Origin: Casuarius casuarius
Lineage: Eukaryota; Chordata; Aves; Casuariiformes; Casuariidae
DNA length: 64,000 bases
Direction: 5' to 3'
Assembly (NCBI GenBank): GCA_003342895.1
Contig: PTFA01000024.1
Coordinates: 3,485,052-3,549,051 of the forward strand
Below, in pieces: positions 16,817 to 50,176 of the stretch; the stretch's first letter is position 1, and each line of letters begins with the position of its first letter. The notes below the pieces were generated by a model. It searched no databases, had not been told where the DNA came from, and worked only from the letters and a program-made list of their open reading frames with translations. The translations under genes and the position numbers were made by a program.

Positions 16817-16965
16817 TTAGAATAAGTATGTATTTTCCATTACTTCCTTCTGCTGTCTGAAAATTGTATTTAAAATTCTCCCTCTTTCCCAGTATATTAG
16901 CATTCTTTGAAATGCAGCTATCAAGAGAAAGATAACTATAAATAAGAAATAGTACTGGCTCCAGT
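16817..16965 (-). CDS. Kelch gene terminal exon with membrane helix
   Basis: Acceptor ctttctgcatcacccgtag. The exon encodes WSQ, a hydrophobic run (YYFLFIVIFLLIAAF), then a basic, Gln-rich tail (RMLIYWERGR and IFRQQKE) and TAA. This predicts a C-terminal single-pass anchor with a short tail of about 30 residues. Composition and the clean stop make this one of the clearer exons, but its link to the kelch exons is by phase and order only. Confidence 0.6.
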
Positions 16966-19900
16966 CTACGGGTGATGCAGAAAGAGAATGATTTCCCTCT
17001 ACTTCTCTCTTATGAGAATGCTTTCTGGAAAAGATCAAGACATACTGTCTGCACATCCCACCGTGCAAGGAACGCAGGGAGTGACCCTTCCATAACCACC
17101 CAAAGGGGCAACAGACCCTTTTATTTTAGAGCAAATCTGGTTTACTATAAAAATGCGAAGTTCTCACCATGATGACTAATTTCCAAGTGAACCATTTGAA
17201 ATGCAAGCCTGAGTTGCAGGGGGTGGGGGCAGGAAAAGTGGGGAAGAGAAGAATGTTTTATTAATCAGTCTCAAAGGATAACTAGTTCAGAGGGGCATAG
17301 GATACCACAGGATATCAGTGTTGTCTGCAAAATGTCTTTTGCATCTCCTAGGAGGCTGGTATTAGCAGTCTGCAAGAAACTCTTCTTCTCTAACAGTAAA
17401 TAATCTGATAACAGTGTATTTTATTGGACATTAAATATCTTAAGAGGGAAATAATTTGTAATATTGAAAGCTAGCAGAATCCAATGCATACATATCAGTA
17501 CAGTATGTACTTTCATTAGAAAAGCCTCCAAACATGTCTATCATTTGTCCAACTGTAGCAAAAGCATGGCCCAACCTGGAAAGAATGAAATAACTTCTGA
17601 TTCCAAAAGTGTTTCTAGAATTAATAAAATTAGAAAATTATTAAATGGAGGGAAATAAGACTACCATTAGAGGAGGATAAGAATATTGCAGAAAGTATAT
17701 CATGTTTATAATGCTGTCAGTAGAAGCTTCTTTCCCTTTTTTTGAAGAGGCGATAAGTCATAATCCCATATTCCCAGTATGTTCCAATATCACAGAAGAA
17801 ATAATAATTCTTACCATTGATTTTCCCTCATCCACTTTTCAGCATCCTGGGCTAATCCCCAGATGTACAAAATGGATACGCTTTGTATGCTTCGAAGGTG
17901 GAAAGTCTTGGTCAAGATTTGGAACAAGAAATATCACGGCAGAACGTGGATATTTTCACAAGATCTGGAGTACTGCCACTACTGGGACCACTATATCCCA
18001 GTCCAAATAAAAGTAAATTTAAGAAGCAAACAATGAAGGAATTTGTACAAAAGATTATCAAATAATTTGCTTCAAAAGAATGAAAAACTTATTTTCTAAT
18101 TAAAACAAAATTAATCAATAAAAGACATTAGTACATAGAAGAAATGGAGTAACTCCTACACAGCAATGCCAAGTCTTAACTTATAAAACATCAAATCATA
18201 CCATTAAAGTTTAAAATATTATATGTGGTAAAATATTGCATCAGAGAATGTAAGTGAAAATGTTCATACAAGTTGTCCTTGAAGGACAGTGTCTCTGTGT
18301 TTACAAACTGTATGGCCTTTCTAAAGTCTTAGAGTTCTTCACATAATCAAGTTTAGGAGAAATGAGACATGTTTATTATGACTTTTAACATCTTCAAACA
18401 AATCAGCATACATTCCATCGATTTAAAATGTTAATTTCCTAAAATGTACCCTCAAAAGGATTTATACGCATTTTGTCAGACAAATACTGTAAACTATTTT
18501 ATTGCAGTTTCAGAATTTTATTCTCTAAAAAATAAAGTTAAGTACATTTCAAGATGTCATTGCAAAATAAAAAATCAAAAAGTATTGTTTGAAAATAAAT
18601 TGATATTAATTTTAAGGTTACTTTCCATTTTTTGCAATATTTTATAGGGCATAAGACACAACAAAATATCCAGTCCAGGTTCCCTGTTTGCATGTCACTA
18701 TCAAGAAACATGGCAATATTACTTTGTTAAGCTTTGTTAATTCAGCAAGAATACAAATTTAAAGCAAACAATAGTTCCTAACTAAGAAGTGAAACTTGGA
18801 AATAGTTCTCAAATGCCTGTGCTATATATATCTTTGGAGATATTCAAAACACAGCTGGACAAGGCCCTGAGTAACCTGAGCCATGCTGGCCATGCTTTGA
18901 ATGGGTGGTTGGACCAGATGACCCTCAGAGATCCCTTGCAACATAAATTACTCAGTGATTCAGTGGTCCAACCAAAAGAATGTCACTGTTCAGATGAGAT
19001 GCAATACTTACTCCCAGTTGCTGTAGAGAAAGTTGACTTCTCATTGTATACTAACTACTCAACTGAGAAAAAAGGATCCTGACTGAATAAGGAAAAATGT
19101 CTGATACCAGAAAAAGCAGAAAGAGAAAACAAATGGCTTGTTAAGACTAAATACATAAATGGCATTAACACTCAGTTTCTTTACATTGTCATAGTAACTT
19201 CTCTAACAGAGTTTGTGACTTCACTTCACTACAAATCTTCTATCAAGTTAGGAAAAGTTAGAATTAAAACCAAAGAGATATTCATGAAAAGACAGAAAAA
19301 GAAATGTGTATATTATCCCCTCTCATTGCTCAGTGAATCACGACTCATGCTCTGGCTGAGTTTCCAAGAGCTCAAGGGATTCCTCCTTGAATCAAACAGA
19401 TATGAAAGCATATCTCCTTTGCATCATCTGAATGGAATAACATCCTTTTCCACATGAAATTATTCAAAAACTCTGAGGGAATCAAAGTGCTTAACATCCA
19501 GATAGATAGTAGCCATGAAAAATAATTCAGTATACAAAATAGGCAGACTACTCATCTATTTGAACATGTTTTTGAGTCTATATGACTTTTAAAAGTTCTT
19601 TAAGAGTCTTAGACAAGAAAATAATACGTACATGCAGCATCTTTAACTGAGTAACCTAGGGTACTGACTTTCTAACAGAATTTATTAGATCCCATTATGG
19701 TCTAGTTTATAGACTAAACTATGGTCTAATCTTTAAAAAAAGATGTATTAGTTATGAGCATGGTTTTTTGCCTCAATAATTAAATTGGAACAACCTATGC
19801 TAGTATTATCATAATGATTATTTCTCATTTGTATAGTAAGGAATCAGTTAGGATCTTTCTTTATTGACCAAGACACCACTGTGCCAGGTACTGCATGAAC

Positions 19901-22900
19901 ACAGAACAAAAAGACAATGCTTATCCCTCAAATTCGCCATCTATAACATGACTTGTAACAAGGTAGCTGATTCCACTTTCTTGTGTAGGAGTAAGTGACT
20001 ATGCAAATTCAGCTGTTACACATGCCTGAGCAGACAATGTTAGCAACAGTCATGGAAAAGCTCTGCTGCACAACAGGACCTTCTGAGTAGGATGCTGTTC
20101 AGCGCAACCTTGCAGAACTACTTTCTTTCTTCAAGGTCTATTTAATCAAGTATTGTTCAGGTGAGAGGATATAAGTCTACTTACTAGCTATGCCAGCCCC
20201 CATGATTTATTTTTAGTGAGTAATACTTTGTCATGGAAATGTAAATATGGAGCCAAGGTCGAAATACATTCTCTAGGACAATCCATTCTTTGTGTACCTC
20301 ATTTGTAAAGCAGGCCTTATGATTTTTGCTGTAAAGCTTTTTATGGTAAAGGTGAAGGCATGAGAAATATTTTTCCATGACAATTACAGCTCTGAAAAAC
20401 TGCAGCAAACAGGATGGCAAATTAGTGGTTTGATTATACAGCTGGAATCATAGGCATGAACATTTTTAGCCACAATGTTCTTAAATTCTGCATTCTATAT
20501 CTACTCAAATTACTTTAGTGACTCAACTGCAAAGGGTATAAATTCAGTCCTGGCATAAGCAGGGTGCCACAATGATTGTTCTGTTTATGACAGGGGTAAA
20601 CATGTCCTAAAGCTATTTATCTGCCATTTATAAATACAATATAACAATTTTTTTAACGATCATGTTTGCTTCTTCTATTAACCATGATCGTATAACCACA
20701 TTTGTGTCCTTTCATTAGATATCTAATTAAACAGAAAGGGAAAAACAGTATGGGTAAGAAAGATCTTTCTGTACTATTAACCCATCTGAGTCATTCTAAA
20801 ACTCGTACTACTTATCATTCTGTCAACCATCATGAATGCGTTTAACTTAAAACAGAAAAAACAAAGCACAGAGGAAGGCAGATGGTTATGAAATTAATTT
20901 CACAACTAAACTCCCTTGATTCTGCAAGCAAAGATGCAAAGAAAGAGAAGAACCCATAGTACAGATCATTCCCATGCACATTACATAATTTGATTTTACT
21001 GATATTAGAAAACTCTGTGTTTAAAAATACGCTCAACTAAGATGTTTTCCTGGAGCTCCAAAACTGTTTGCCTTTCTGTCCTCAAAGGGCCTCAGTGAAC
21101 TCTATTTTTCAGGGAGTCTAAAGCTTCACATTAAGTGGAAAACACCTCTTATCATCATATTTTCATAATATAAGTATTTTTCGAGGACAACTCTTGTCTC
21201 TCTTTCTTGCATTAGACAGAGAGAAGAGACATTTTTGTTTAGCTGAACACTCATTTGCCATCTTTCATTGCTAGAATGACCTGTACATGAAATAAAACTT
21301 TCAAATGTTAGGAAAACATACTCTTAAAAAATAGCAATCTGAATGAATGCATAACATTTGCCTTTAGCCAAGAAAATACTCCAGTGGTAGCTGCCTATAA
21401 GGTTTTCCAAGACTGGTCTAACATTTAAAATATTTAAGCTTGCCTAGACAGATTAGTTTAATATCCACTTAAGGGGCAATTTCCCTTCCTATGGCATACT
21501 TTAGGATTTTTTAATGATATACAAAGTCAGACCACTTATTAATAATTATTTGGTTTGTTCCTACATTTTTCTAAAGAGAGATGGGAATTTGTGATTTACT
21601 ATGAGTTTTCTGGCTGTGGTTTTCATTATGTAAGCAGTATCCTACCGAGACAATTTTGAGTGCAGAAGGATTTTAGGATTTGTTTTTTTAAGAAGCAAAG
21701 AAGTCCTATATGGTTTTGAAACAATTGCCTTTCCTTGATGGATGCCATGCAGGAACGGATTTGGACTTTGGGGCGTAATCCATTACAGAGGCCTCGGTTG
21801 AGTTCAGTTTTGTCTACAAAGCAGGAATTCAATTTCTTTGTTATGTGTGTAGAATTCAGCATATCTTCCCCAAATGCTTAGCACTTATTCATTGAATGCT
21901 GAATGATTTTTCTCAGAATTTACAAATAAACCCATAAACTGGATTGAAAGGAACTAAAAATGAGTCAGAACATCAGCATCTGTGTGAGCTGGTTCTTTGC
22001 CCTCAATAATACAAACAACAGAATAAAGCAGCCCTTTCAGACTCTTCTTCATATTAAAACTAATTGAGATCTTGTATACAGGCTATATTTGAAGAAATTG
22101 AATAGTGGTTGTACCTGTTTATTTGGAAATACTGTAAGAAGGACAGGTGAACAACTCGGATAACTTTTAAATGGAATGGCTAGAATATAGCCTAAATAAT
22201 GACTGCTCTTCCTCTAGAGCTAACTCAAAGAAAGAGTTCTGCTGGTTTTAATGAGTCGGTAATATGAATAAAGCCAGATACTCATGTCATGTGTCACTAC
22301 AAGATTACAGGTTCCATCTCTCCCTGTTTTTAAAGATCCTATGACTGCATTCTTGCTCACGTGTCAATGCCTGATGGACACCTGGGGGCAGCAGTGGCTT
22401 GGTTGTAAATTGGTTAATGCTTTTGCTCTTTTGCTTCTAATGCTTTTGTTCTTTTCTTAAGCATGGCATTGGCATAAATGAATAGTACTCAACTGTTCAA
22501 TTAGAAAACTCGAGTCTTATAAACTCAGTCAAAGTCCCACCACCACCAGCTTGAGTATACACATACATGGCTATACCTTTCATTATTTGACCACAGTGCC
22601 TTAGCAGATACTTGGACAGGTATTTACAGGACAAGAAAATATGTGAGCCTCTGTTTCTACAGAATTCTTGGCTGCTGCACAAAGACTGTTAAGATAAGTG
22701 TGTTTTGGGAATAATTTTCTACCTATTTATCTACCGTGCACAGAAGAGAAACCATCAAATGTCTCTCATAATGGTTTGCATTATAAAACTAACAAATTAT
22801 GGTCACTGCTAACACAGGTAACTTGGACATTATGCAGGAAAGTAGAAGGGGAAGTCTGCATATTCCATTACAGCCCCACTGATGTAGATATTTTCCCATA

Positions 22901-25900
22901 AGTTAACATTTTGTTAAAAAAACAAAGAGGCTTATTTTGGATGAAAGTAACTCATGGATTGTTTGTGTGATTGACCTTGTTTTTGCATGTTTGAAGAAAC
23001 TGCATGGAAGGAAAGAGATTTCAGCAAAATTGGTAACACCTCCACCCTCAAATCCACAAACTATTTTAAACCTATTTATTACTGCCTTCAAAAATTCTGC
23101 TTTTTTCCTGGACAAGTCGCAAAGTCAGAAAATAAACAGGATTAATTCACCTCTCATGTGTGTGCATTATGATATAGTCTGTGATTTCACGATTGCCTAC
23201 TGGTTTTTTTTTTTCCCAATGGAATCTATACCTGATTCAGTCCACAATATGAATACTGCTCATTTCCTGAAAAAAGAAACAATGGAAAAACAGAAATACC
23301 GTCCAATAAGATTGCAATGACATTCATCCAGGTCATCAGTGGGCTTCTCAGAACTGTCTGCACAGACCTCTGTACTTGAACTAACAGAATAACTGTCTGA
23401 CATTTTGCCAGCCTCTATATGGACAAGCCCCGAAGGAAGATGAGATACTCCTGTATTTGTTGGCACCAAATAAATACTGAATTTCAGGAACGTTGAGTTA
23501 CGCTGAGGTGTCTTTGTCCTCACTGCTGAACTAGAAACTCAAAAGGTGGCAAAAGGGGAGATTAAGAGCACAGACCAAAGAGACAAATCTTAAGCCAAAG
23601 ACCATCCACAAAATTTCTGGTGCTATCCCAAACCTAAGCTTTCTAAAAAGAAAATTTGCCAGAATTTTGTATCCTGAACAAAACATAATAGCCAGCATCA
23701 GGGAAGAGAGACATATGGCTTGTAAAACTGTAGCCCTAATGATTACTCTTGGCAAAGTTATAAGGCATATTATAAAGAGGAGTGATAGTTGACCTTAAAA
23801 TTAGTAAATCTGCCTGAAAAATGTGTGTGTATGTATATGTGCACATGCATGTTTGTGTGTACATACGTACGTATGTGCATGTTTAAGGAGGAGATTTTTT
23901 TAAATTGCATAGTATGCTGAAAGACACAAACATTTTAGATACTAGACTTCTTTTAACCGTCACAATGACTAACTCTTTTTTGTAGAGCTATAATCTTTAA
24001 CCTATAGGTCACGACCCTCAAGCAGTCTTGAAGTGTTACATGGTAGAAGACAGTAAGCAGCAGCAGCAGTTCAGTTTCCTGTGAGCTGTCCAGAAGCTCA
24101 GTTCCCTCAAGGTGGGAAAGTGAGAAAAGACTGTAATGACTGACAGCAAGTGTTTATGTTAGCCAAGGAACTGCCTTTCATTACTGCCAAAAGCTCAGAT
24201 TTTTCCAAAGAAGGAAAGTGAACATAAACAGTGGCTGCCAGTTATTATTCCCAGTTTTCAAGGTCCTATTCTGGAGGAGGTGAGCTGCTAGCATGTGTAT
24301 AACTTCACTGGGTTGTACACAAGTAAGAGCTTCCAATGAGTTCCACTGATGGAATAAGTAAACATTTAGCTGTACTAAGCTCCAAATACCATCCACATAC
24401 TAGACAAATCAGAAAATCACATCGCTTTCATGTTCCCATTTCCTTAAAATTTTTTTTTAAAGAATTATGTCTGATGAAACTCTTTTAAATGTTGTCATAT
24501 ATGTTGATACATCTATTGATATGCCAAGAAAATGAAATCAAAACTCAAAATATCTTGATGAGGCTTCCAAAATACACTAACAAAGACTGCAAATGTCATC
24601 TTCATTTCAAATTTACTTTAGACTCCAAAGAATCTCGCTCAGCTCTTCCAGGCATTTTCTCATGGCAGTAGGTGATGAAAGATAATTTTTTCAGCATTTC
24701 TCCAACTAAACTGCAGGCTTAGCAGCATTAAATTGTATGTATTTTTATCATGCTTAGTGGGGTTTAATCTTTAATTTTAAATTGTATAAAAGCCTTACTT
24801 TGAAAGTAAACCAGCAAGGAAGCTGTTTGAGAAATGAATGAAGATTTTTTTGCCCTTTTAAAAGTGTACACAGTAACTGTTAATTTGTCATTTTGTTTTT
24901 TGTGGTTTTGTACCGTCTCTTTTAATGATTTCTACACTGGCTACACATTCATCTCTTACACATTTCTTATGCTAAGAAGCACACTGCAGAATTTTAATAA
25001 CAAAAGTGCTATTTCTTATTCTATTAGAGTAAAAAAAAATTTGCAGTCCTCAAAAACGGTATTATAAAAGAACTGCGTTATGGAGGCAGCATTAATGACA
25101 GAAAAAAATGAAGTTGCTTTGAGATTTGCATTTAAAGCAGCATTCATAATTTCCTCTCCTAGTTTTCTAACTTTGGCACACTCATTTTTTGGAGGACAAT
25201 TAAGTACTTCTTTGTAGGTGAAATACTTACAGAAGAATGTTTTTCCTACCTCAGGTCTTTTGCATCTATGTAACATCTTCATCAAAGAATTTTCTGTTTT
25301 GAATTTGATTTCTTTCATCATATTCTCTAGAATATAAACTTCTCAGGCCAGTTAACTGACTTTCTTAATGAGGATCATTTTAACAACATAGGTGTATCCT
25401 ATTTACTTCTAACTTAAGTATGCATGTCAACTTATGTATATTATGTCACAACCTAAAAATAATAATAATGTATTGTTTCTATATGTTTAAAGGTCAGAAA
25501 AAGTGACATTTTTCCTAAGAGAGTATTGGAAAGAAATACAGAGTTATACACTGTGTGCTGCCTGGAGCTTGAATTTCAGCTTGAAGCTGAAATTAGTTGA
25601 TAAATTCCTAACTATTTGTGAGCTCATTTTACTTTGACCCTTTGAATCAAATAATTCTTTGTTTTCCACTACGGTAGTCTTAAAAGAATTCATCACTAAC
25701 CTGGCAGCAGGTGCTGAACCTGTGGTTTTGAATGGGTTCCAACTAAGAAATACTGAAATATAATATGGAATTTTAAACCAAAAGTCATAGTAACAGCAGA
25801 GTAATTGTTCAATTTTTAACTTGTATCCCTTGTAAGAATTGTAAATTCTAAAAATTAGGGCTCTATATGACAGTACAAAAAGAATATTAACTATCCAAAA

Positions 25901-28900
25901 GGTATTGTCATAACTTTTGCAACCTTAAGAAAGCACTACTTATATGCAACATAGCCAATAATTTACCAAAACCAAACAAAAAAGTACCTGAAATTATCCA
26001 GCTATGTAACTGGTCTTCTTATAGTTAATATCTACAAACAATTTTCCATCCAACCTAGATGGAACCTGTGAGTTTCAACTACTTTAAGAGCTTAGGTGCC
26101 TAAATGCACATTCAAATAAATAATACGACAAAAGATGGTGGCTTACATGCACATCCTTAAGTCTTACATTGTATTTATCCTATGGAAGGTGATAGAAAGT
26201 TATTAAGGTAACTGATTCGTGCTTATATAGCATATGCCAAAAGGTTTGCAAGCCTGATATTTTAATGGTATACTTTACTTAATAGTATTCATTTTTGCAA
26301 ACATAGCTTTCCAGTTGCAATTTTTCCTAAGTTTGGAAAGAGTTTCTCTAGTACTCAAGTATCTTGTTGCAGCATTGTGAGACGTGTTTCCTAAACACAA
26401 AGATGACAGGACAGCTTTATTTACCTGTATTGAACATGTACAGATCACCAATCACTTTCCTATAGTGGATACTACCACACGCATATATTCCCCACCACAG
26501 CTGAGCTGTGTCTGAGGGTATTAGCCATGATGCCAGTGCTTTTTATCTTCTGCGAAGTAAAAAAACCTAAAGTAACAACAGAAATGGTATTAAAAAAAAA
26601 CAGTCCTCTGCTTTGATCAGTTCGGCATGGGAGGGGAACAGGTTTGAGTGTCCAGACTGAATTCATTGGAGGTTTGGTCAATCATACAAACTTCATTTTA
26701 CTGACAACAAAATTCATCTGCTTTGTCACCTTTTTTCACAGTGGATGGCATGTAGGATTGAGCTACTCAGAATGTCTTGCCTAGGTGTGCAGAGCTCTGA
26801 TTTGTATCCAAATTCATTTCATACCTTTTCCTTTAAATCAGTCACCTCCTGCTGGCTTGCTTTCCTCACCAGCATATTATTGGGTAGCCACAGATCCCTA
26901 ACCACTTTCACTGGAAGTGTGGAGAGGCTAGGGAAAGAGGTTGTAGTGTAATAACCTTTGCATAGCTGCGTGCATATGTACTGAAGGGAGTATAGGGAGA
27001 CACAGGTTATCATAACCCTTATAATAAAATACTATTGGAAACAGTGTCTGAAATATATTACAAATTTGTCTTTTAAAATATTAAAATATTACGCCATTCT
27101 GCTTAAACATAAGAAAAACCTGTTTAAATGTAAGGGTGGTCAAACACTGGAACAGATTGCCTGGAGAGTTGTGGCATCTCCATTCTTGGAGATACTCAAA
27201 CCCTGACTGGACACAGTCCTGAGCAACCTGCTCTGGCTGACGCTTGTTTGGGCAGGAGGGCTGGACTAGGTGATCTCTAGAGCTCTCTTCCAATCTCAGC
27301 AATTCTAAGATTCCATGCTGTGTTTATTTTGGAAAAAAACCCCACAATATCATGCATATTTTCACTATTTGTTGAGCTAAATAGCTAGTCCTAAAGCTGA
27401 AAAGAAGAGAATACTGTTGCAGCACAGAGATGAGACTGAGCAGGAATTCAGTACCACTTGGGCAGTCTAACAAAATGGCCTTGATTCTAAAAGAAAATAT
27501 GCATTGGCAGCCTTGAGGATCTGTCCTGACCATAGAACTGGAGCCTAAGAATATAAACAACAAAGGACGTGTGTATGTGGTAGAAAGGAGGGGAGAAGAT
27601 GGATGGGACAAAGGAATAAGGAATGGAAAGAAAGGAAGCAGCTGAGTGTATTTAAATGTGTGTTAAATGCGTTAATATTTTTCATACTAAGAGAAATATA
27701 TTAATTGTTCCATAGAACTTACCTTAACTTTTATTCAGGACTACTTTTTTATAGGCTCCCTTATCTCCAAAAGTCTAGTGGTGTGACTGGAGGGAAAAGT
27801 CTAGTATCTTACAGATCAGGTTAAGGATGGTGAACATAAAGGAAAGAATGGAAGGAGCAACAGAGACATAATATGACAAGGAGACCAGGAGCTGTTAAAG
27901 ATGATATTATGAATTGTCAAATTAGACAGTAAGAAAGAATAGTAAAGAGTAACAGTGTACAGTTGTAAAGGGCCTAAGAAGAACAGTAAAGAGGCTTCAT
28001 CTTGGCACAGTGAAGCAGAGAAAGCCAGCTGCAAAACTAAAAGAGTGGAGTAAAACGGACGGAGCAATAAAGATGATTTTGTGACAGTGTAGGTGTTAGG
28101 AAGTAGTGCTGGGGAAGACAAAAATTGTGACTGTAAGATTCTGAGATATTTAAGCTGCAGGCAGGAGATTTGGGTGCCTCGAAAGAAATCAGAAGTCATT
28201 TCTTAGCAGTATTAGGCAGCAAGATTTGGACAGAAATGGTGATAAAAACACAAAAGCTTAAAATCTCTTATTTTAGTTACTCATGGCTCTGGTGTGGAAT
28301 CAGTTTTGGAGAGAGGCAATTTACCATAGGTATATAGTAATACAGTTACCAATCCTCTTCACGTCACAGAAAGAGGCAAGTTTTGGATAAACATATCTAA
28401 ACGAAACTATATTATTTTGTCTTACAGAACATTTGAAAAATCAAGCCCAGAGATACCATCTTTAGCCTAAAATAAAAAAATATTATCTGTTCTTTGACAA
28501 TGCTAGCAACAAACTTGTGTCAAGCAAAGGCAGTGGCTCTCCTTTTGCCTACCTCCAACTTCTAAATCCCACGGTTCATCTGAGATACATCTTCTATGCA
28601 ATAGAAGCATGACCTTGTATTCTATCTAGTCAGACAGATGTACACAGCTTTTGGACAAGAATGGCATTTCTGGGATCCTGGCAAATGACTGTAAAGTCCT
28701 CTCCTGTCCTGTCTAGCTCTTCTTCCTCAGAAATGTAGATTTTTGGACATATGCCTAATGCAGCCTCAGACCTGAATTTAATCCCGTATTTCGTCTTCAT
28801 AAACAACTGCAGTCATGCATCAAGCTGATTGAACCTCATAATTTTCTATCACCTCTTTAGAAGTGATAGATTTTACCCCTGCTGTTCAGCCTCAGAATAA

Positions 28901-31900
28901 TAACTATTTAAAAAAAAGCAAAAAAACATTCCATAAAGAAAGTAAACAAAATGTGCAAAACATCACCTTGCATGAACAATGCTAGCAAAATTCTTATATT
29001 CAAAGACACCTGTAAAAACCTGAAGGCAGAGATAGCTCAATTAATAATTAGAAGGAAATATAAAACCCCCAAATGGGTTAAATTACTCGTATTCTGCCTC
29101 CTCATCTACCCAAGAACAAACTGAATCATATCTTTTTTTCTCCTCAGTGTGAAGCACAGATTCAGATCTGGCTCAACATTACAGAATATAAAAATGTGAG
29201 TGGGTTCTAATGGACCTGCTTAAGGTTGCTGACAGAAAACCCTGCAGGATGTGCACTTCACTAGAAATGACAAACGCTCTCAACCAAATAATTTGCACAA
29301 CTCTTTCCGCTGTGCCAGAAGCTTTAAAGTTCCATTTGCAGAATCACAGAATTTGCCAATGTACGAGAGGTTTTCTTGTCAGCCTAAGCATCCATACTGC
29401 TCTATTGTGGAAAAATAGGCTCTCATTCTCCTAATGTAATACAAAATAATCATCACAAAAAGTTGGAAAATTTTACTGCTGCTCACATTCACAAAGAAAA
29501 AAAAAGAACCAACATTTGTAATATTCATGATAACACAAAGCAACCTTGGCTTATTCTTTCTTACCCTGCTACGTGTAATAAATACATTGTTCATTCATTA
29601 AAAAACTAGGAAAGTTAAGAAGAACAAAAAATGTTCTCTGTAGGAGTCACCCTTAGATTAGTTCCAAAGTTCCCACGCTCCATCACATCTACATACAAAA
29701 CACATCATGTAACAGGTCAGACTCTGCCCTTTGGTTCCTTGCTATTCCCTCTTCACAATTGCTTCAATGATGAATATTCCACTGCCTGTCTTGTGACAGC
29801 CTTGCTCAACAAGACATATCTACAGTGACCCTTCTCTTCCTTTCTCAAGTAAGATCCACAGCAGGCACTGGAGCATCAGTTCCAACTGGATCTCACCCAT
29901 AACTTTCATATGGAAGACACAGTATGTAATGTATACTCATCTTTTCAAATAAGAAGTTGTCTGACTCAATATCACTCTTTATCCTGCTAGAGTTGTTCTA
30001 TCTTTGTCACCCACTGTTTCAGAAAATCAAAATATGTCAGGTTTGCATATTTGGTTTGTATGCGCCCTTTTTTATCATTTGGTCCTGTACTTCAATTGAT
30101 ATCTGTCTGGAGAAGAAAAAGCTAGAAAGCTAGACATGAACATTCAAAGCTTCACCCCACCTGCTTTAAGCCAGGAACCTGAAGCTTTCTCCTTCACATC
30201 CCAGGTGAATTTCCTGACCGCAAGACTATTAAAAAAAAAAAAAAAAAGAAAACCCAGAAAAGTTCTGGGATAGATCTGCTGATCTTTCCTACTGGAGTTG
30301 TTTCATTTCTGTAAATTGACCTACAAACAGAGAATGAGAGAAAGAGGGAGAGAGAGAGAAAGAGAGAGACTAAATCCATAGTCCAGGAGCCGGGGCAGGT
30401 ACCCCAACTATGAAACACTCAGGTTCAAACGCTTGCTCAGCCAGAGTACCCCACATCCCATGGAAATGTCCTGTCACTGGATCACATATTCTTAGTACCA
30501 GTACTTTTTTCAGCGGACTTGAAGGAAAAGGAAACTTTAAGGTATCTTGAGTTTATCCTAATATAGAATGGGAATACTCTGGAAATTCTGAAGTTATTTC
30601 CCACCAACCTCTACACACGATGTCTGGGAACACTTCAAGATGTAAAGTTCCTGGTTTTATATGAACATTGAAAATGATGTTCTTGAAAGGACCTGTGTTT
30701 AGCTCACTGTTTCAAACTATGTTTCTCTGTGGAACTAATAAGCCTGAAGCGGGATCTGAAGTGCTGTACATTGAGAACTGACATTTGGCACAGAATTAGT
30801 CTCTTATTTGGAAAGCTCACAGCAAAGAGCCTCACCCACTGAGCCAAGCTGCCTTCAGTGAATGAAGTAAGAAGACATGTAAAAGAGGCATTCCTAAAGA
30901 AGCTGCATTCCAGCGAGGTCTCTCTGTGGCTTGGGAAAGGAAGCTCTAGAATTGCAGCAGCAGCAGCGACAACAGTGAAGAAAGTTAACCTATTGCTGTA
31001 TCCACCTTTATTCTATTAAACCACTAAGAAATACAGTATCTCTGTGGAGCTAGCTAAAGCCTTGTAGCTAACAGGCCTTACACAGAATTCTCCTAATGGA
31101 AAAAAGTTGCTATAATATGCTATGCTTTTAGAATGCAAAATAGATCGTTTAGTTTTGATATTTGAAAACCATGAGATTCTAAAGCAATTGGTAGATTCTT
31201 TGTCACATAATGTAAGTATTTAATAATACATAATACTACAAGATATTATAATATATTCATAATACAAATAACACATTTTTGGAGGTGATAAGGAGGTAGG
31301 GAGTCCTACTTGGGCACAAGCTGAGTACATGCGAATTCCCATCACTAGCTTCCATTACAAAAACCGCATTGAAAACTAAATGTTATACTTGTAAAAAAGC
31401 CCCAGCCCTTTGCACTTATCATTGCCTTAGTGTAACTATAAATAGTATATGTTTTGATTGAACTTTTGTACTCACTAAGAGCAAAGCTGTAGATTCCTGG
31501 AAGACAACCTTCAGCATCCTGAGTAGAACATCCTTCAAATAAATGTAACTTTCCTTTTATCACACTGTAATGCAAAGCAAAGATTGTATGATTGGTTCAT
31601 AAAATAGCTCCTGAATGAATAAACAGAATTTCTATAAAATCAGCATGTTTTTAGATGTATTCTTTATAGCAAATCATGCATGTAAAACATTTCTTAGATT
31701 AAGGCAGACTAAACCTCACCTCCAATCTGATGAAAATCTTTACTGCAACATTGCTTGCATCTACACCTTCTATTTTACTCTTCAGTATATTAAAAAGGCA
31801 GATAATTGCGCAGATTTCAGAAGAATTACAGAAAAAGTTGTCCTTTGATTCTGAGAATTAAAAAGGCATACTGTCAGCTCATCTCTGAGTAATTGAAAAA

Positions 31901-33823
31901 AATAGTGTTGTTTTTGCCCGTATGACACATCTTTAAACAGTGTGAACCTCCTATGTTGCCTCACAACATCTGTCAATTCACAAATATTCCCCAAGCTTTG
32001 CACATTCCTACTTGTCCATGACAGCATTTGTAAGGAAATAAATTTTATTTTCAGGTTTCTAAAAAAAAATTACAAAAATGGAAAGTATTGCTTAATCAAG
32101 GCAAGAACATGGTAGTCCCTCTTAACCCAAAAATGGAAATGTGTTGATGTATTCAAGAAAAATTAATCCATAGATTAAAAACCTGGAAAGCAAAACCACC
32201 TTGATGCAATCCCTTCAGGTGTAATTCATCAGTGCTGATAAAAAGGAACCACGTGATTCTTCTTTTGATTTGCCTAATATGGAGTTTTGTATTCTAACTA
32301 TATTTCCCTCGATTATTTAACTTTATACTGTTTCCCACAATTCTCATTTGTGGAGTGCTTAGATAAATATTTGACTAATTATTTACAGGGATTTTTGCCA
32401 AGTTATTCTTGTTGAAGAAGTTTGTGCTGCACTTCTAAGCACATATCTATTGCACATCTCTGCACATGTTCTATATTTTTCCTGATTAAACATTGTGCAT
32501 TTTCATATACTTATATGGTTTAAAGAATGTGTATGCCTTTGCAGTATACTGATCCATTATCCTGCTTTTGAAAAAGCTAGATGACATATATTCTGTCTAA
32601 AGCATATATCTCTAAAATAATGATACAGTACTAGAAATACATATATACTGAGCAAAAATGCATACAGTTACTTTATTTGACAATAGCAAGTTTAATTTAT
32701 TTGAGTCATCTCACAGGTCTTGTATATTCAATACTGATGTTTATACAGGAAGTGGAAATCTTATTAAAAAAATGTTTACTACTATAGGCCAAATGGGACA
32801 CTGATATGGAAATTTATGATTATAAATATGTGCCTCAAAAACAGAAGATTTCAAAACACAGTGATGTCAGCTGTTTTCCTGACAGTCCTTCCACATGTCT
32901 CTCATGGTTAACGACTCCCTGCCATGCAACTGTTTGGCTCTCACATTTTTGGTTTATTTGCTGGCCGTACCATATGAAACCAATTCCAAGCATCAAAATA
33001 AAATATTTCTGAAAGGAGAAAACAGTCACAAGTTTTATGTGCTTACTACAACCCTCTATTTACAAGAATACATATTACAATGACAAACACATGCACGGTC
33101 CAGAGGGGAGTGCTGAGAATCAAGGCTCCAAGCTTCTAGGTCTTATCTAACCACAGGCTTGTAAAAACACTAAAATAGCTCTGTTTCTCACTCTCCTCAT
33201 CTCTAGAAAGGAACCAATGCTAAGCAACTTCATAGGAATGCTGCAAGTTTTGATTACCTGATACTCTAAAGAGCTTTAGGATTCTTAGAAGTGGCAAAAT
33301 GTTCTGAATTTTTTGTTAGATTAAAAATTCCATTTTTCTTTAAGAATGTATTTTTCTCCAGTGCACTAATTGGCTCCATATGGGTAAAGCCTGTGCAAGA
33401 GGCAGTGAAGACAATAGCATAAATCAGGGATAATGTTAAGGAACCTTACAAATGATTCCAAAATCGTTAACAAATGTGATCTTTTGCCGAAAGATGTTTT
33501 CTATGGCGTGCTTCCACTTAGCAGTCAGATTGTTTACTGCGGCCAAGCATATGAAGTTCTGTTGATGTGCATTTCCTGAGAAGCCCGACACTGAGAGCAG
33601 AGCTTTGTCTAGTTTAGAGACAGTTGCATCAGCAAATGCTCTGCTTCACCTCACTGCAGCATGTTGCACTAGACAGTTGCACAAGAACACATGAACATAA
33701 TTATAGGAGAACAAATATCTCTAATTTAAGCACAGCTGGGAACCTCCCACCACATCATCTTCATTTTGTTCCCTTACAGCAGCATTCCTCAACGTTCATA
33801 ATCAATGACCACCTAACTTCTTT

Positions 33824-33862
<39 letters not shown>

Positions 33863-36800
33863 ACAGACACAGACACAGACACACACACACACACACCCCC
33901 CGGGGGCCTCTACAGTTAAGCAGCAGGCGAGGGAGCTGAGCCCTGCTGTGTGTCATGTATGCAAATAAAAAGTTTTTGCTATACAAAATTGTGTTTTATT
34001 TCAAAATTGGAAACAATAAAGTATAGAATACCAATAAAATAGAACGTGACACTTGGGCTGGGATGCCAGAAGATACTGGCAGCAATCATGAACTGGCTCC
34101 CAACCATCCCTCAGGGTACTTACTATTTCTTTGACTGTAATATTTTTATGAACTATCTTCTGCTGCCTTATGAGTAGTATGTGACTCATGGGTGATGCAC
34201 TAAGTGACACTGCTGATGTACTAATGAGCTCCCAACAGCAGAAAAGAAATACACTTAACACCTGATACTAAGTTGGAGTAGAGAGAGGGCTTTAAGTCCT
34301 TGAGGGGACAAGGCAAGGAAGACGCATACAGTCCATGCCCAGATCCTTAGAGGGGTCCACACTGGCCTCCTCATACAATCAATGAGATACCCAGCTGACA
34401 GCAGTTAAAGTTATGGCTCCATAGTTTTCAGGACATGTTGGCGTACGCTTCCTTCACGGGGAATTGGTAGTTTCGGAGGAAGTGCTAAAGGCACAGACTG
34501 CAAATCTTATCAGTTTGTTAGAAACACAGGATTCAGTTCTCTAGATCCTCAGGGACCTTGGAGGCAAGTCAGGTCTGCTGTGACATAAAATGCACATCTA
34601 TCGTGCTAGCACAGAGAATACAAGACTGAAATCTTTACAAGAAAAGGGAATCCTTGACAGACATGTTTTGCCTGCTAAATGGGCAAGTGACTCCCTACTT
34701 GGATTCACAAAAGCTGCTGTTTAGCCTGGAAAAGGAAATAAAAGACAGGGCTTTTTAATTTTTTCCTTTTTGCCCATGAAGGAAAGGAGCCATATGTGCT
34801 GTCACTTTGGGAAGAGAGTACGTCATTTGTCTGAAAAACAGTTACACATATAAATGTCCATTTTTGTTTGCCCCCTTCTATCCTTTGCCATGTTTGCATG
34901 AGAATAAAGAGCTTACAAGAATCTTTGCAGTAAAACCTTTATCAAGTCCCCCAGTGAAGGGGGTGCCATGAAGGAGAATACTTCTAAATGGATCCTCAAA
35001 AAAACCCATCAGTTTTCATACTGGGAAAAACCATCATCATTATTTGCCTGCTTTTTGAAAAAATATTTAACTATTATATGACTGGCTATATGTGAATAGC
35101 AGGCAGGGGAGGGGAACATGCTGGGTAAAATGACTGCTCTTCCTCTCTGTCCCATTATAGCTGAGCAAAATTATACAGAACTCCAGTTCTGTGTGAAAGG
35201 AAAGAGGCTTCTAAACTGACTTAAAAATGCACCTGTACTCTAGCAGTTCTAGGACTGCTGTTTTTTAATCTTTTCTGAAGCTCTGAAGGCAAAGTCCAAG
35301 GCTTGATATTCAAAATAAATACAAAAAACTATAAAAGAACCATAAAGGAAAGCCAAATAATCATCCAAGAGGGAATTCTGAAAAATGATACAGGTGTAAA
35401 CACAGCTGCAAGGGAAATAACTGATTCTATTAAAGTTTAGCATGCTGCATACTGGAGGCAGATGTTCATAACTTCTAACTTTCTCAGAAAAGGCCTTAAT
35501 TGGCTATATATCACCAGAACTCACAATTTCTCTGTACCTGTTATTTATATAGATACGCTGATTGAGTATGCTGTAAGCATACACATCCATTTTCATTAAT
35601 TACCTTGGTTCTTTAAAGCGCTACTTTGTTAAACACTATCTGTTAGTGATAGCTTTTGGCTGGTATATACTTTAGGACGCTTTTTTTCAAATTGAAAGGG
35701 GGATTCAAAATAATGAGTAATTTATAGAATGGTATGAATGTTCCAGTAAAAAAGCTGAAGCTATTGCAAGCTATTTATATCATCATGCACTGCAAACTGA
35801 CAACTGGAGCTAGTTATTTTCTGAATGGAAGACCCCCATGGGAAATCTGAGTCACGGGGCAAGCAGCGGTGATGGTGACGACTATCCCTGTTGCAGGAAG
35901 CCACTGAACACAGCTTACAATGTTTGGCAATATGTGAATATATCATTCAAACACAAGTGCTGTAAGTGTTCCAACCTCTACGCTCTTTTACATCTGACAT
36001 CTTAAATCACGGCTAAGGTTCAGGTTCTATTCTTTTAGTAAAAGTAGTACATAGAAAGTGAGAACTGAATTCTTCCTGTTCAATTGGTGGAATATGTGAT
36101 ATCTAAGGTCAGGCATATACCCAAGTAACCACAATAATCATAGCTTTCCTGCTGCCCAAGTACTGAGCCCGAGGCCAAGCTACGGCTCAACAACCTTTTG
36201 CTTCACACCAGAGAAGTGAAGGAACAGCAGTACCAGCAACAGACAGACTTAACTGGATAAAGACAATGCTAGCTGAAATTCCAATAGAGAAAAACATCTT
36301 GTATGCAGCTATATACATTGGAATCTTTCATATTTACAGTTCCTGTCTCTTGAGTAAATTCAAGTTTCAGTAAATACGTTCTGCCTTCTTGACCTTTCTC
36401 AGTATTTTGAATTGACTACACTGTATTTTATTTTATCTGTTAAATTATACAGTCTGCTGTAGATGGTTAAACTGCAACTATCTACAGTTCAGTAATGAAG
36501 TGATTCTTGTAATAAAACATGGGTAAGTAGCGCCCACTACAGTTAAGGCTCAGTTCCTATTTCCATTGCTCAGATGTGTAGCAAATAAATTCATCTAGGG
36601 GTTAGCTTAAATGAAGTAGGTTCTGTGTTTATAAAAGTCAAATATCATCTTTCTTTTTTCTTGTTTAAGTTCGAACTCTTGCATTTGGGTTTTTACTGCT
36701 GGCACCTGTAACTAACCTGCAATTTTCCGATGACAAAGATTCTTCAGTATTTTAACTTAGAGATTTCTTTTCAATAATTTCTACAGCTAAAACCCATTAA

Positions 36801-39800: not shown

Positions 39801-42800
39801 GGCTGTAACAGCTCAGTACTTCACTTCTTCCTTTTTATTACTTGCTTAATATCATATTTAATATTTAAAAGTGACAAACAAAATTCTGCTTTTCAACAAT
39901 TTTCCTGAAGAGGACAGATGTACTTTTGCTTATATTCTTTTTCTCAAAAGCAAGGATTGGCATTTAAAGTATGTTTGCAAGGTTTGACCACTGAAAGAAA
40001 GAAAATGTTATACAAATAATTACTACTCATTTATGATGACAAAGCAATAATAGAATAAAATAGCTCAAGAATTAATTGAGCTGAGATACCTCTGATTTTC
40101 CAGTTTACCAAAATGTATGTCCTTCTCCACCATAAGGAATATGTCCCTCCTGCAGTATCCTCTCCCAGGTCAAATTAGTGAGAGTGACTGCTGATAAATA
40201 AGAATGTTAGACTATTAACATCTAGCAGTATTCCATTTAATGTATGTGGATAAACACACTGAAAAATGAGGAAAGATGGTGACTGAAACAGCTTACATTG
40301 TATACTTCCATTATTTTTCCCATAATCATTTCACCTTATTATCATCATCATAATTTTTTTTTTATTTGGAAGAGAACATGCTACATACTGTGACATGGAT
40401 GCTTCTGGTAAGGAAGTGAACCATTCATCTTCTAGGAAGAAAAACATTGTGGGCACATAGTTCACTGTTCTTCCTCTCTGTCTTTTCCAAAACAAGTCAA
40501 GTTTCTCTGCAACACTCTTGCAGAAAAATCCAAAATTCAACTATATTTTTAAAAAGGGATTATGAAAAAGGCATTCTATATCCTAGATATATAGCAGCAA
40601 CAGTAAACTGTTCTAATAATATGAAATATTTCCAGATGCACATACAAATACAGCAGGTTAGTAAATGACGACTGTAAAATACATCTAAATAAAGTATCAC
40701 ACGGAGAGAGCAGACGCTAATTGTTCACATGAAGTAAATTAAAAACCACAGGGAATTATAATTACACAGCTTTTATTTCTATATACACATGAAACAGCAG
40801 AATATAAAAGATTTTGTAATTTTTAAATGGTTGTTAAACCATCTCAATCTTGCTCTCAGCAACACTTCACCATTTCTATGGTGATAACACTTTATATACA
40901 GCACAAATGACTGTCCTATTATTGTGAAATATGTGCAAATCCAGAGGGAGAAATAAATCTGTGAGTACTTTGCCAGCTAGAAAAGATTAATAATATCTCA
41001 CTTGTCAACATGTAGAAGTCATTGAAGTATGTTGGCCGATCATCCTAGTGGAGGAAGACAGAGAGATGGAAGTTGATATTTTTATTTACAGGACGTTAAT
41101 AATGACACCATACTAAGGACTGTTTTTTAAATTAAAGAGGTGTTTAAGATATCACAAGCGACTGGTACAAGAAATAAAACATAAATTGTTACCAAGGGAG
41201 GAGTGAGTGAAGAACAGGAATACACAGCAGCACGTGATGCATGGAATCCTGCTACAATGACTAGTAAATATTCAGATTAGAAAAAAGAAATCAAGTCATA
41301 CTGAAGACTGAAAACAAAAGGCTTTAAAAGATATCACTGAATACAGTTGTATAGCAAATTTAATAAAGTATAACAAGTCTAAACCGGTTATACTTACAAA
41401 GGTGTTACAAATGGAACAGCTTCCAAACATGAATGCTATGTTGCCTGCCACTGCCAAAGCATGTCCCTGCCTAAAGTGAAAAGGAAGATGGAGAATAATG
41501 TCGCCTGCTGAAATTATTCACATTTTTTGCCCTTAATCTGACAGCATAACTTAGGATGCCTGGGTGGCAGAAGAGATGGATTTGAACCTCCTTAGCCTAA
41601 GCAGGGAACTGAACTCAAATCAGTCACTTTCTGAGAAGTGCTCTGCTGGGCGTCAGTTAAAACGGGGATGTGTTGCCACCACTACATTAAAGGTGAGTCC
41701 TGTGAAGTTCGCTGCCTGCCAATAGAAAGGATTCATCTCTGAATGTGCTCAGTGAATGGCTGCATCTCAAGTGTAGCCCCTGCGAGCTGCAAAAGATCAG
41801 ATGCCCTTCTCTACATAGTGACCCCTCTTAGATAACTCTACGTACATCCTTGTTCAGAACATGGGAAGCCTGGGTTGCCATTTGGAAGTGTAAACTCGCC
41901 TGTTGACAGCACAGAAAACCCCCATGACCAAAAGAGGTACTTGGAATCACCCTTCTGGGAACAGATTCTTAATTTTCAGGTTCTCACATTAAATTCTTCT
42001 GCAGTTCTAGCACTTGCCTTTTTGAAAGCTCACAGCCTGATCCAGTGAACATATCTGAACATTTCTGCTAAATGGCATCTCCTTGATCTCAGTTTGGCTG
42101 TAAGCATCCTCTGGTGGGAAATGGACCTCTGTGCCCCATTGTGGCAAAGGACCCAGACATAGAATTAGTAGAGGACATGCACAAATTCTTTATTCAAGGA
42201 ATAATACCTTAGATAGTAAACTTTTGGTCAGTTGTTATCTTTTTATTTGCATAGTAGCCAATTCAATAATTTTAAACCAATAAAACGTATACATTCAAAA
42301 TGGCTAAGCCAACAGAAAGATAAAAATTATTAGTGAGAAAGGTGCTTCTGGATGTTTTCACTATCAAAACTTAAAGATCTTCACATATACTAAGCATCTG
42401 CTAAACACTGTATCTATTTTATAAAAGATAGATACAAAAATAGCTAAAAAAGCATTGCAGAATTTTCCTGGAGGCTAGCAAAGCTATTCTGTTGCAACCT
42501 CTGAAGCAAAATAATAACATCTGCCTATGGCATTCTTCATCTACAGGGGCCCCAAACCACTCCGCCAACTGTTTATACATTCAAGATTATTCCAGATGTG
42601 TACTTACACATTATTTCAATATGCTATGTTTGAGTGCCACTGAGTAGTGGTAAGGGCAGGTAAATTTTTGGAAAAAAAAATCGGATTCCAATCAAACCAT
42701 GATGCTAAACTCCTTAGTTGTGTAGTAACTGTACTATATGTGTGATCTCAAAAGTAACCACAAATCATCAGAATAACAACTTATTTCTCATGTGAGAGCC

Positions 42801-43753
42801 AAGGGATTTTAATTAATGTTAAACTTATTCTTAGGTTGAAACAGGTGTAACAACACAAACAAAAGTCTCATCAAATCTGAATTATAGTGTACATGCAGAC
42901 ATAGAATTGGAAAGCATTTGACAAGCAAAAGATAGATAAATGTAACACACCTATGGCTTGGAGGGTCTCCAGTGACCTCTTTTGGAACTGAGTGTCCACT
43001 TGCTAATGCCAGCTTTTGAACTATGGGGAAAAACACGTATTATTTAAAAGGTTCTGCAAGAACATTCTGAAATTCATTCAGTGGATGAATCAGTGATCTT
43101 GATTATTTTACTTAAAAAGGGATTTAGAAGAAATCAACCACTGTTTCTTTATTATGTCTGTGGCTATTCTTTCATACACTGAAGCACTGTATTTATGACA
43201 GTTTTCAAGTTAAAAATAAAAAGTTTAAAGACTGACAACCAGCGAGTCAGAAGTCAAGTCAAAAATAACCTCTTTTGTTACTTTTCTCTTTTCCTTCAAC
43301 CCATATTCCACTCACCTGTTTTGCCTGTTTTTTTCACTCATAGTGTAATGGCTTTCTGTAGATTCAATGTATTGTTAGAAACTCAACTCTGGCCTAATTT
43401 ACCCAGCTCCAGTTCATTCTTTATCTGCCTTGGCAGCAGTTGCTACGACACAAGGTACACTGAAAAAAGATGCACATTTGCTTCATGATGCAGCACTGTT
43501 TCCGGGTTACTGGAACACATGGCAAGTTACACAGATACCTGAGACCTCTGCGTTCATGCTGATACGTCTGTAATATGGCACTACAGTAAAAAGAAGTATT
43601 TTATATTATTATTATTAGATTACACTAGAGAAAAGTTGCATCAGTTGATTGGTAGCTAAACTCGCTGTTAATTTTAAGAGTAATTAACCTTACCTACTAC
43701 ATACAGTTGATGATCTCCATGATCAAGTAACTATATCATCACATTTGGAATTC
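16817..43753 (-). CDS. Kelch-repeat gene with C-terminal membrane anchor (multi-exon, 5' end not found)
   Basis: Fourteen small segments, each between a GT donor and an AG acceptor on the minus strand, join in order from 43753 down to 16817. From the second segment onward the phases agree at every junction and there is no stop until TAA at 16817-16819 (926 nt, about 309 residues). The product reads as kelch blades: SHRQGHALAVAGN...FMFG...YFNDFYML; DEW...EGHTFCVIKGKLHLF...LPGIYSFAL; EPWDLEVGG...RHCGQIMKGIAMYVY...MVHLEISHHDW. A hydrophobic helix (YYFLFIVIFLLIAAF) and a basic tail follow. Kelch blades build beta-propellers that bind partner proteins; the tail predicts membrane tethering. The glycine doublets are altered, so the gene may be relaxed or fast-evolving. 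Start codon and N-terminal blades were not located. Some junctions were chosen because phases fit. No orthologue recognised. Confidence 0.7.
17168..17208 (-). CDS. Kelch gene exon, 41 nt
   Basis: A strong pyrimidine tract and acceptor (ccaccccctgcaactcag) and near-consensus donor (CATCATG|gtgaga). It encodes LAFQMVHLEISHH, a kelch third strand, and the split codon makes the Asp before the Trp of the terminal exon. Confidence 0.65.
17836..18065 (+). other. Open coding-like segment within a kelch-gene intron
   Basis: After a good acceptor (cctcatccacttttcag) one frame includes ASKVESLGQDLEQEISRQN and PNKSKFKKQTMKEFVQ and ends at TAA. It is antisense to the kelch gene intron. No family recognised; may be chance or a retrocopy fragment. 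Confidence 0.15.
18833..18962 (+). repeat. CR1 LINE 3' fragment
   Basis: Matches the CR1 3' region as I know it: TTTGGAGATATTCAAAACAC, CTGGACAAGGCCCTGAGTAA, a GGTTGGACCAGATGAC stretch and a tail near GTGATTC. The orientation is sense on the plus strand. It is diverged and 5'-truncated. Confidence 0.85.
19704..19722. repeat. Short inverted repeat
   Basis: TAGTTTA and TAAACTA face each other across five bases, inside two TATGGTCTA direct repeats. Function unknown; probably incidental. Confidence 0.4.
20656..20691. repeat. 9-bp inverted repeat
   Basis: ACGATCATG pairs with CATGATCGT across an 18-nt loop. Nothing links it to a known element. Confidence 0.5.
22361..22381 (-). CDS. Kelch gene microexon, 21 nt
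   Basis: Excellent acceptor (ccactgctgcccccag) and donor (GACAC|gtgagc) bound 21 nt encoding CPSGID plus split codons. It enters and exits in phase 2. It joins blade core to the MVHLEI strand of the next exon. Confidence 0.5.
22525..22650 (-). CDS. Kelch gene exon, 126 nt
   Basis: Acceptor attctgtagaaacag, donor ACTGA|gtttat (weak). It encodes LLRHCGQIMKGIAMYVY, a kelch R-H strand and core strand. The glycine doublet position reads TQ, followed by AGGGG. The acceptor is a CAGAG pair two nt apart. Without the weak donor this frame would stop at 22497. Confidence 0.55.
23300..23450 (-). CDS. Kelch gene exon, 151 nt, Ser/Asp-rich loop
   Basis: Acceptor gccaacaaatacag, donor GGACG|gtattt. It encodes VSHLPSGLVHIEAGK followed by a polar, acidic segment (SVSSSTEVCADSSEKPTDDL). 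It reads as an inserted loop between blade strands. An insertion of this kind is known in the last blade of RABEPK, a kelch protein. The donor is moderate. Confidence 0.55.
23822..23880. repeat. TG/TA-rich simple repeat with palindrome
   Basis: Alternating purine-pyrimidine sequence made of TGTG, TATG and TGCACATG units. It includes the perfect palindrome ACATACGTACGTATGT at 23861-23876. Such tracts are mutable and Z-DNA prone. It lies in a kelch-gene intron. Confidence 0.8.
27100..27316 (+). repeat. CR1 LINE 3' fragment
   Basis: Contains ACACTGGAACAGATTGCCTG, GAGATACTCAAACCCTGAC, CTGGACTAGGTGATCTC and the ATTCTAAGATTCC tail. Sense orientation on the plus strand, 3' terminal portion only. 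The internal AAGAAAAACCTGTTTAAATG marks its left part. Confidence 0.9.
28553..28579 (-). CDS. Kelch gene microexon, 27 nt
   Basis: Acceptor atgtatctcag, donor GTTGGAG|gtaggc. It encodes EPWDLEVG plus split codons at both ends, giving the expected Trp strand and, with the next exon, a Gly-Gly. I picked this acceptor over an upstream tag because it keeps phase, so the call partly rests on frame fitting. Confidence 0.5.
30231..30247 (+). repeat. Poly(A) tract
   Basis: A run of about 17 A. No retrogene body is recognisable upstream. Confidence 0.7.
30327..30370 (+). repeat. GA-rich simple repeat
   Basis: Imperfect GAGA/GAAA purine tract on the plus strand within a kelch-gene intron. Confidence 0.75.
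31476..31564 (-). CDS. Kelch gene exon, 89 nt
   Basis: Acceptor tgctttgcattacag, donor GCTCTTA|gtgagt. It encodes VIKGKLHLFEGCSTQ then DAEGCLPGIYSFAL. KGKLHLF is the core strand and GIYSFAL the third strand. The glycine doublet reads EG. It is separated from the previous exon by an 8.5-kb intron. Confidence 0.8.
33092..33302 (+). repeat. MIR-like SINE remnant
   Basis: The order of blocks follows MIR/CORE-SINE consensus: a GTCCAGAGGGGAGTGCTGAG start, CTCTGTTTCTCACTCTCCTC then ATCTCTAGAAAGGAACCAAT in the middle, and TAAAGAGCTTTAGGATTCTT toward the end. Divergence is high, as expected of an amniote-age repeat. Confidence 0.55.
33827..33896 (+). repeat. (CA)n microsatellite
   Basis: About 70 bp of CA repeats with interspersed CAGACA units, directly followed by CCCCCCGGGGGCC. 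Length polymorphism is likely. It lies in a kelch-gene intron; a 114-codon frame across it is an artefact. Confidence 0.95.
40109..40159 (-). CDS. Kelch gene exon, 51 nt (or 41 nt)
   Basis: It encodes EGHIPYGGEGHTF, a kelch G-x-x-P-x-x-x-G-H-T strand, ending TTTTG|gtaaac in phase 2. With the consensus donor of the previous exon the acceptor must be gagag|GATAC (exon end 40159). With the alternative donor the better ctgcag acceptor applies (end 40149). Both keep the same downstream frame. Confidence 0.65.
40389..40431 (-). CDS. Kelch gene exon, 43 nt
   Basis: Acceptor tgtttttcttcctag, donor TCACA|gtatgt. It encodes DEWFTSLPEASMS, the Trp-bearing strand expected after FYML. A second donor (CAGTAT|gtagca) four nt further would also keep frame if the next exon used its CAG acceptor. 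Confidence 0.65.
41002..41044 (-). CDS. Kelch gene exon, 43 nt
   Basis: Acceptor ttcctccactag, donor GACAA|gtgaga. It encodes DDRPTYFNDFYMLT, the N-D-hydrophobic-aromatic strand of a kelch blade. It enters in phase 0 from the previous exon and exits in phase 1. Confidence 0.75.
41398..41470 (-). CDS. Kelch gene exon, 73 nt
   Basis: Acceptor ttttcactttag, donor CACCTTT|gtaagt (near consensus). It encodes QGHALAVAGNIAFMFGSC and then SICNTF. The G-H-x-hydrophobic strand followed by FMFG is the kelch core. The position after FG, normally the second Gly, is Ser. Confidence 0.8.
41560..41640 (-). repeat. Possible MIR-like or tRNA-derived SINE piece
   Basis: The minus strand carries GGAGGTTCAAATCCATCTC followed by TTCTGCCACCCAGG, resembling the B box and adjoining part of MIR-type SINEs. 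No full tRNA fold is apparent. Weak call. Confidence 0.3.
42951..43020 (-). CDS. Kelch gene exon, 70 nt
   Basis: Acceptor tgtttttccccatag, donor CCATAG|gtgtgt. It encodes QKLALASGHSVPKEV then TGDPPSH. This is the classical start of a kelch blade (hydrophobic pair, then G-x-x-P-x-x-R), completed by Arg across the next junction. Confidence 0.75.
43539..43580 (-). CDS. Kelch gene exon, 42 nt
   Basis: Acceptor cttctttttactgtag, donor GTCTCAG|gtatct. It enters with two bases and exits with one, and encodes PYYRRISMNAEVS. Its place fits the loop and fourth strand before VQKL. The usual Trp before KL is Val here (codon split across the junction). Confidence 0.5.
43694..43753 (-). CDS. Kelch gene, uncertain upstream exon (contains TAG)
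   Basis: The acceptor gctcctttgtag and donor GTAGTAG|gtaagg bound 60 nt. The end reads DHGDHQLYVV, a typical kelch strand, and exits in phase 1, which fits the next exon. If the whole segment is used, a TAG falls in frame seven codons in. An alternative acceptor directly after that TAG would leave LLDHGDHQLYVV and avoid it. Confidence 0.4.
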
Positions 43754-50164: not shown

Positions 50165-50176
50165 GGTCACGTGAGC
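50165..50176 (+). promoter_or_regulatory. CLEAR-like E-box
   Basis: GGTCACGTGAGC contains GTCACGTGA, close to the CLEAR/USF-type motif bound by TFEB, TFE3 or USF. It is about 140 nt upstream of the start codon, with a second CACGTG 26 nt further on. Confidence 0.5.

Follow-up and report, generated by a model that had tools for sequence, protein, structure and literature searches.

The propellers of kelch proteins bind a partner on one face. In the KLHDC-type substrate receptors of CUL2 the propeller has a pocket for C-terminal degrons and is followed by a BC box and a cullin box, and in Tea1 and Kel1 of yeasts an N-terminal kelch propeller is followed by a coiled coil, a layout that similar proteins of fishes and reptiles share. 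Here we describe a kelch locus in a 64,000-nucleotide stretch of the genome of Casuarius casuarius (assembly GCA_003342895.1, contig PTFA01000024.1, positions 3,485,052 to 3,549,051; the whole stretch is referred to below as the window and is numbered from its first base). There is strong support for a kelch beta-propeller gene of many exons that lies on the minus strand and extends over a longer distance than the model given in a preliminary description of the same DNA. We think it probable that this is the decayed form of a vertebrate gene with introns, whose product was a kelch beta-propeller of six blades carrying a C-terminal tail, and that it no longer encodes the full protein.

The best solved relatives of the joined exon product in the Protein Data Bank (PDB) were KLHDC3 (E=4.8e-23; entry 9d1i), KLHDC2 (E=5.5e-16; entries 6do3 and 9bc9) and LZTR1 (E=1.1e-15; entry 9mey). 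All three share the kelch propeller (PF24681) with the locus; however, the similarity is only distant, the gene at the locus is broken and its tail appears to be different. At so distant a similarity, the locus is not supported as an orthologue of either KLHDC2 or KLHDC3. The gene would share the layout of Tea1 and Kel1, and of its coiled coil the window contains just a possible start, in the last exon found (E16). Three papers describe KLHDC2 and KLHDC3 as proteins that recognise C-terminal degrons on behalf of ubiquitin ligases (PMC11470957, PMC12922316, PMC11568203). A 2025 review tabulates human KLHDC members with RABEPK and MKLN1 (PMC12035522), and we could not place the gene at the locus among these proteins. 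No paper on this locus, or about this gene, was among the matches listed by a literature search, which says little about novelty.

Fifteen exons (E2 to E16) were found on the minus strand across 41 kilobases (kb), with their introns kept. Each exon border was ranked as a percentile among all AG/GT sites on the minus strand of the window (given below in the order acceptor/donor), phases were checked from exon to exon, and the joined products were compared with Pfam and with the solved structures in the PDB. Where a hand-typed probe is mentioned, this is a sequence composed by hand and not taken from a database, whose use is described further below.

E2, 42951..43020, minus strand: QKLALASGHSVPKEVTGDPPSH, leading into blade 1; AG/GT borders, acceptor percentile 91, donor percentile 99; phase matches E3.
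E3, 41398..41470, minus strand: QGHALAVAGNIAFMFGSCSICNTF, core of blade 1, with the kelch GG present as GS; AG/GT, percentiles 99/91.
E4, 41002..41044, minus strand: DDRPTYFNDFYMLT, N-D strand of blade 1; AG/GT, percentiles 100/98.
E5, 40109..40190, minus strand: VTLTNLTWERILQEGHIPYGGEGHTF, Trp strand of blade 1 and start of blade 2; AG/GT, percentiles 91/86.
E6, 31476..31564, minus strand: VIKGKLHLFEGCSTQDAEGCLPGIYSFAL, blade 2, with the kelch GG present as EG; AG/GT, percentiles 95/93.
E7 (broken), 26425..26566, minus strand: FFTSQKIKSTGIMANTLRHSSAVVGNICV, continuing in a different frame as GSIHYRKVIGDLYMFNT, blade 3; AG/GT, percentiles 97/99.
E8, 25701..25752, minus strand: FLSWNPFKTTGSAPAA, completing blade 3 and beginning blade 4; acceptor percentile 75, donor percentile 99; located via the hand-typed probe.
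E9, 17475..17575, minus strand: LGHAFATVGQMIDMFGGFSNESTYCTDMYALDS, blade 4; acceptor percentile 99, expected donor lost (CT).
E10, 16716..16801, minus strand: TLTWQQCKVKGEIPTGRTHHTLTAHYDK, completing blade 4 and beginning blade 5; AG/GT, percentiles 94/98.
E11, 15019..15100, minus strand: DIYLIGGTYGSKDGNKPPKDVMTKLRL, blade 5; donor percentile 99, expected acceptor lost (GG).
E12, 12828..12913, minus strand: KIKWKMPLHIGIPSACRHRHVAFVLHCH, completing blade 5 and beginning blade 6; AG/GT, percentiles 99/99.
E13, 11485..11569, minus strand: LCIFGRMNEEELNDKTSMKLINLSDRQP, blade 6, with the kelch GG present as GR; AG/GT, percentiles 88/97.
E14, 6164..6212, minus strand: MKEISSGFGIQGVRS; donor percentile 100, weak acceptor (percentile 23); phase matches E13; identity via the hand-typed probe.
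E15, ~4334..4420, minus strand: FPPT*IPKVKYELTESTLSTRTDTLPAIA, with a premature TAA and an uncertain 5' border; donor percentile 94; phase matches E16; identity via the hand-typed probe.
E16, 1688..1792, minus strand: AVQLRDFISMYNQAVDRITRALVLLDLDFQKLDTE; AG/GT, percentiles 94/82; phase matches E15.

The phases of E8 fit both the second half of E7 and E9. Exons that follow E16 presumably lie beyond base 1 of the window, and at the other end nothing convincing as exon 1 was seen in the upstream minus-strand frames that were read; no start codon was found. An imperfect (AC)35 microsatellite occupies 33827-33896, inside the intron between E5 and E6.

The product of E2 to E6 (119 amino acids) matched PF24681 with E=1.3e-13, its 51.2 bits narrowly passing the curated cut-off of 50, and matched KLHDC2 in the PDB with E=1.1e-9. 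The product of E2 to E14 without E8 and the start of E7 scored 139.7 bits against the same family; with these two pieces added it scored 242.3 bits (E=4.7e-72) against the cut-off of 50. E7 to E9 joined on their own reached 49.4 bits (E=4.6e-13), just below the cut-off, and a 32-residue piece of the true E7 alone had no Pfam match, such short pieces being hard to detect. When the translation was read by eye, six blades could be made out in order across E2 to E13/E14. The kelch double glycine is whole in two of the six (E9 and E11) and substituted in three (E3, E6 and E13), and in E7 it sits at the frame change; by the same reading, a Trp would be expected where E7 begins but seems to have been replaced.

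The preliminary description had proposed a multi-exon kelch gene on this strand, which the corrected model and its Pfam match bear out, but it had also proposed a working gene with one open frame, and this is not supported: the exons contain one frameshift and one premature stop, and a donor and an acceptor have been lost. Its exons at 43.0, 41.4, 41.0, 40.1 and 31.5 kb are real, with AG/GT borders at percentiles 86-100, compatible phases and no stop, and the junction that it had offered as its test (43020-42951 to 41470-41398) has exactly the borders found here. Of the nine kelch motifs that it quoted, the five in E2 to E6 are confirmed (SHRQGHAL, FNDFYML, EGHTF, KGKLHLF and GIYSFAL), whereas EPWDLEVG, RHCGQIM, IAMYVY and MVHLEI are not. 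Similarly, the consistent phases without a stop that it reported hold for E2 to E6 but not for the chain found here, which, with all exons joined unaltered, stops after 149 amino acids. Ten exons (at 26.5, 25.7, 17.6, 16.8, 15.1, 12.9, 11.5, 6.2, 4.4 and 1.8 kb) are added to its set; the earlier model ended at 16817, immediately before the clear exon at 16801-16716.

It is extremely improbable that the gene passes, as was proposed, through segments at 28.5, 22.5 and 17.2 kb. By the description's own account the phases of these segments fit, but the frames that hold EPWDLEVG (28.5 kb), RHCGQIM and IAMYVY (22.6 kb) and MVHLEI (17.2 kb) match no Pfam family, which is weak evidence alone as the pieces are short. 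E7 to E9 are better exons that fill the same blades and come close to the PF24681 cut-off by themselves, and E8 with the start of E7 raises the score of the whole model by ~100 bits. The segments at 28.5, 22.6 and 17.2 kb were therefore rejected as exons. The description had itself cautioned that its junctions at 28.5, 22.5 and 22.4 kb were chosen to fit the phase, and this caution was justified, since no kelch similarity was found for segments used by its chain past 31.5 kb. No support turned up for its segments between 43.58 and 43.75 kb, at which no separate test was aimed. A gene model built by eye can combine true and false exons.

The hand-typed probe was composed only when the exons were already known, and it supports their colinearity without being an independent test. 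It gave 14 matches of at least 28 bits in the window, all 14 on the minus strand and with some exons matched repeatedly. Sixty first-order Markov controls gave a mean of 0.02 matches per control (best 28.1 bits), and the best match in the reversed window was 23.9 bits. The Pfam scores are independent of the probe, except that the probe led to E8.

Like the exon anatomy and the kelch homology, the lesions are read directly from the GCA_003342895.1 assembly, and from them we infer a loss of function. E7 is 142 nucleotides long, whereas the phases of E6 and E8 require a length divisible by three. One frame gives QKIKSTGIMANTLRHSSAVVGNICV in the first part of the exon and a different frame gives GSIHYRKVIGDLYMFNT in the second part, none of the three frames is open throughout (3, 1 and 2 stops), and the frame change does not fall within a homopolymer run. 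The donor position of E9 reads CT; GTs that would keep the frame are present inside the exon at 17510 (percentile 71) and 17501 (percentile 44), but splicing at either would cut blade 4 short, and there are frame-keeping GC sites at 17525 (percentile 61) and 17471 (percentile 10). The acceptor position of E11 reads GG, with in-frame AGs upstream at 15127 (percentile 44), 15139 (percentile 8) and 15211 (percentile 65). On the minus strand GATATCTAT at 15121-15113 is repeated at the start of E11 (15100-15092), flanking the lost acceptor, and a small tandem slip could have shifted the border of this exon. In E15 a TAA interrupts the frame that contains IPKVKYEL and is in phase with E16; among the AGs examined as acceptors for E15, none yields this frame from E14.

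Several observations speak against decay. Each lesion might reflect a misassembly or an exon border of an unusual kind, and the sole in-frame stop outside E7 is also compatible with a living gene. E9 and E11 have the internal GTs and upstream AGs given above, skipping of either E7 alone, E8-E9 or E7-E9 preserves the frame, so that a shortened product is possible, and E14 to E16 were identified by their phases and the hand-typed probe, with no database match. We nevertheless consider it quite unlikely that the gene is intact and that its faults are sequencing or assembly errors or misplaced exon borders. Most exons and splice sites are indeed well preserved, the E7 frame change and the E15 border depend on one assembly and one reading, and other splice sites could serve E9 and E11; however, 1.2 kb of sequence has four separate faults that differ in kind, the frame change lies outside any homopolymer run, and the double glycine has been substituted in half of the blades.

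A gene that still makes a shortened protein, i.e. a four-blade, tailless product of a message that omits E7-E9, enters E11 through another acceptor and terminates within E15, is unlikely. E7-E9 form a frame-preserving cassette that contains both the frameshift and the lost donor, and a short message made up of E2-E6, E10, E11 (from an acceptor further out), E12-E14 and the first part of E15 has an open frame of 265 or 293 amino acids from E2, according to the E11 acceptor used. However, the two E11 acceptors concerned rank at percentiles of only 44 and 65, several escapes would have to coincide, no start codon was found, and we know of no four-bladed kelch propeller. It is very unlikely that a vertebrate kelch gene with a tail, to which we can assign no name, is still expressed in this lineage as a four-blade propeller, reduced through the skipping of the damaged E7-E9, and so stands between function and loss.

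The locus is most likely a unitary (or duplicated) pseudogene, derived by a fairly recent loss from a vertebrate kelch gene without an assignable name. A retrocopy origin was rejected because the introns are retained, the 15 exons having their splice sites spread over 41 kb, and the disabling lesions in the assembly are the E7 frameshift, the E9 donor, the E11 acceptor and the E15 stop. The decay is light. Outside E7 the coding frame has 1 stop in 1090 nucleotides and the two remaining frames have 26 and 21, which points to protein constraint in the past. AG/GT is kept at 28 of the 30 splice sites of E2 to E16 when the wrong-phase AG of E15 is counted, or at 27 when the missing E15 acceptor is counted; 24 of the 28 rank higher than the 85th percentile, and the four that do not are the E8, E14 and E15 acceptors and the E16 donor. 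Because the exons are colinear and most of the splice sites survive, the loss looks recent. The neutral rate in birds is near 2e-9 per site per year, and 2-3 changes in 60 bases would very roughly place the loss ~17-25 million years ago, with a wide error.

In a variant that overlaps with the pseudogene reading, the locus is a dead duplicate of a copy that is intact elsewhere in the genome. We think this rather unlikely. Nothing speaks directly against it, but a segmental copy would have to carry the entire 41-kb intron structure. A described loss for comparison is stk33, a unitary pseudogene in neognath birds with several whole exons lost (PMC4509753). As described there, it is likewise a multi-exon vertebrate gene left as recognisable exons with indels and stops, but it is far more decayed, having lost whole exons, whereas the kelch locus keeps six recognisable blades and has about four faults. 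If the loss is real, the kelch locus would be a clean and apparently recent addition to the lineage-specific gene losses of vertebrates, and its lesions could be dated by comparison with relatives. An annotation could easily list the locus as a gene or as nothing at all.

The gene would run leftwards over at least 41 kb, and its tail, probably a coiled coil, would continue past the left end of the window. A working protein would most likely have engaged a partner through one propeller face, in the manner of KLHDC-type kelch proteins, and the possible coiled-coil start in E16 suggests that the tail would have served pairing or docking. Transcripts, if they are made, should be mis-spliced and reach early stops, because of the frameshift in E7, the loss of two splice signals nearby and the stop in an exon of the tail.

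Rfam gave 0 matches at the gathering threshold. The fraction of guanine plus cytosine (GC) peaks at 0.508 in 48001-52000, resembling a CpG island, against 0.355-0.394 in the other 4-kb bins. A plus-strand frame at this peak (50476-50898) holds LQIAELEKRLAELEATVRCEPDG and one unread base; it may be exon 1 of an adjacent gene, and there may be a promoter here that is shared with the kelch gene. When one reading frame of the island was compared with Pfam, it gave only a weak match to Dynamitin (E=0.017). Two minus-strand frames, at 27084-27323 and 47984-48292, hold HLVQPSC..FEYLQEWRCHN and HLVQPPC..FEYLQRWRLHNLSG / HPHSKKVFPHV, and we take these to be remnants of CR1 retroposons.

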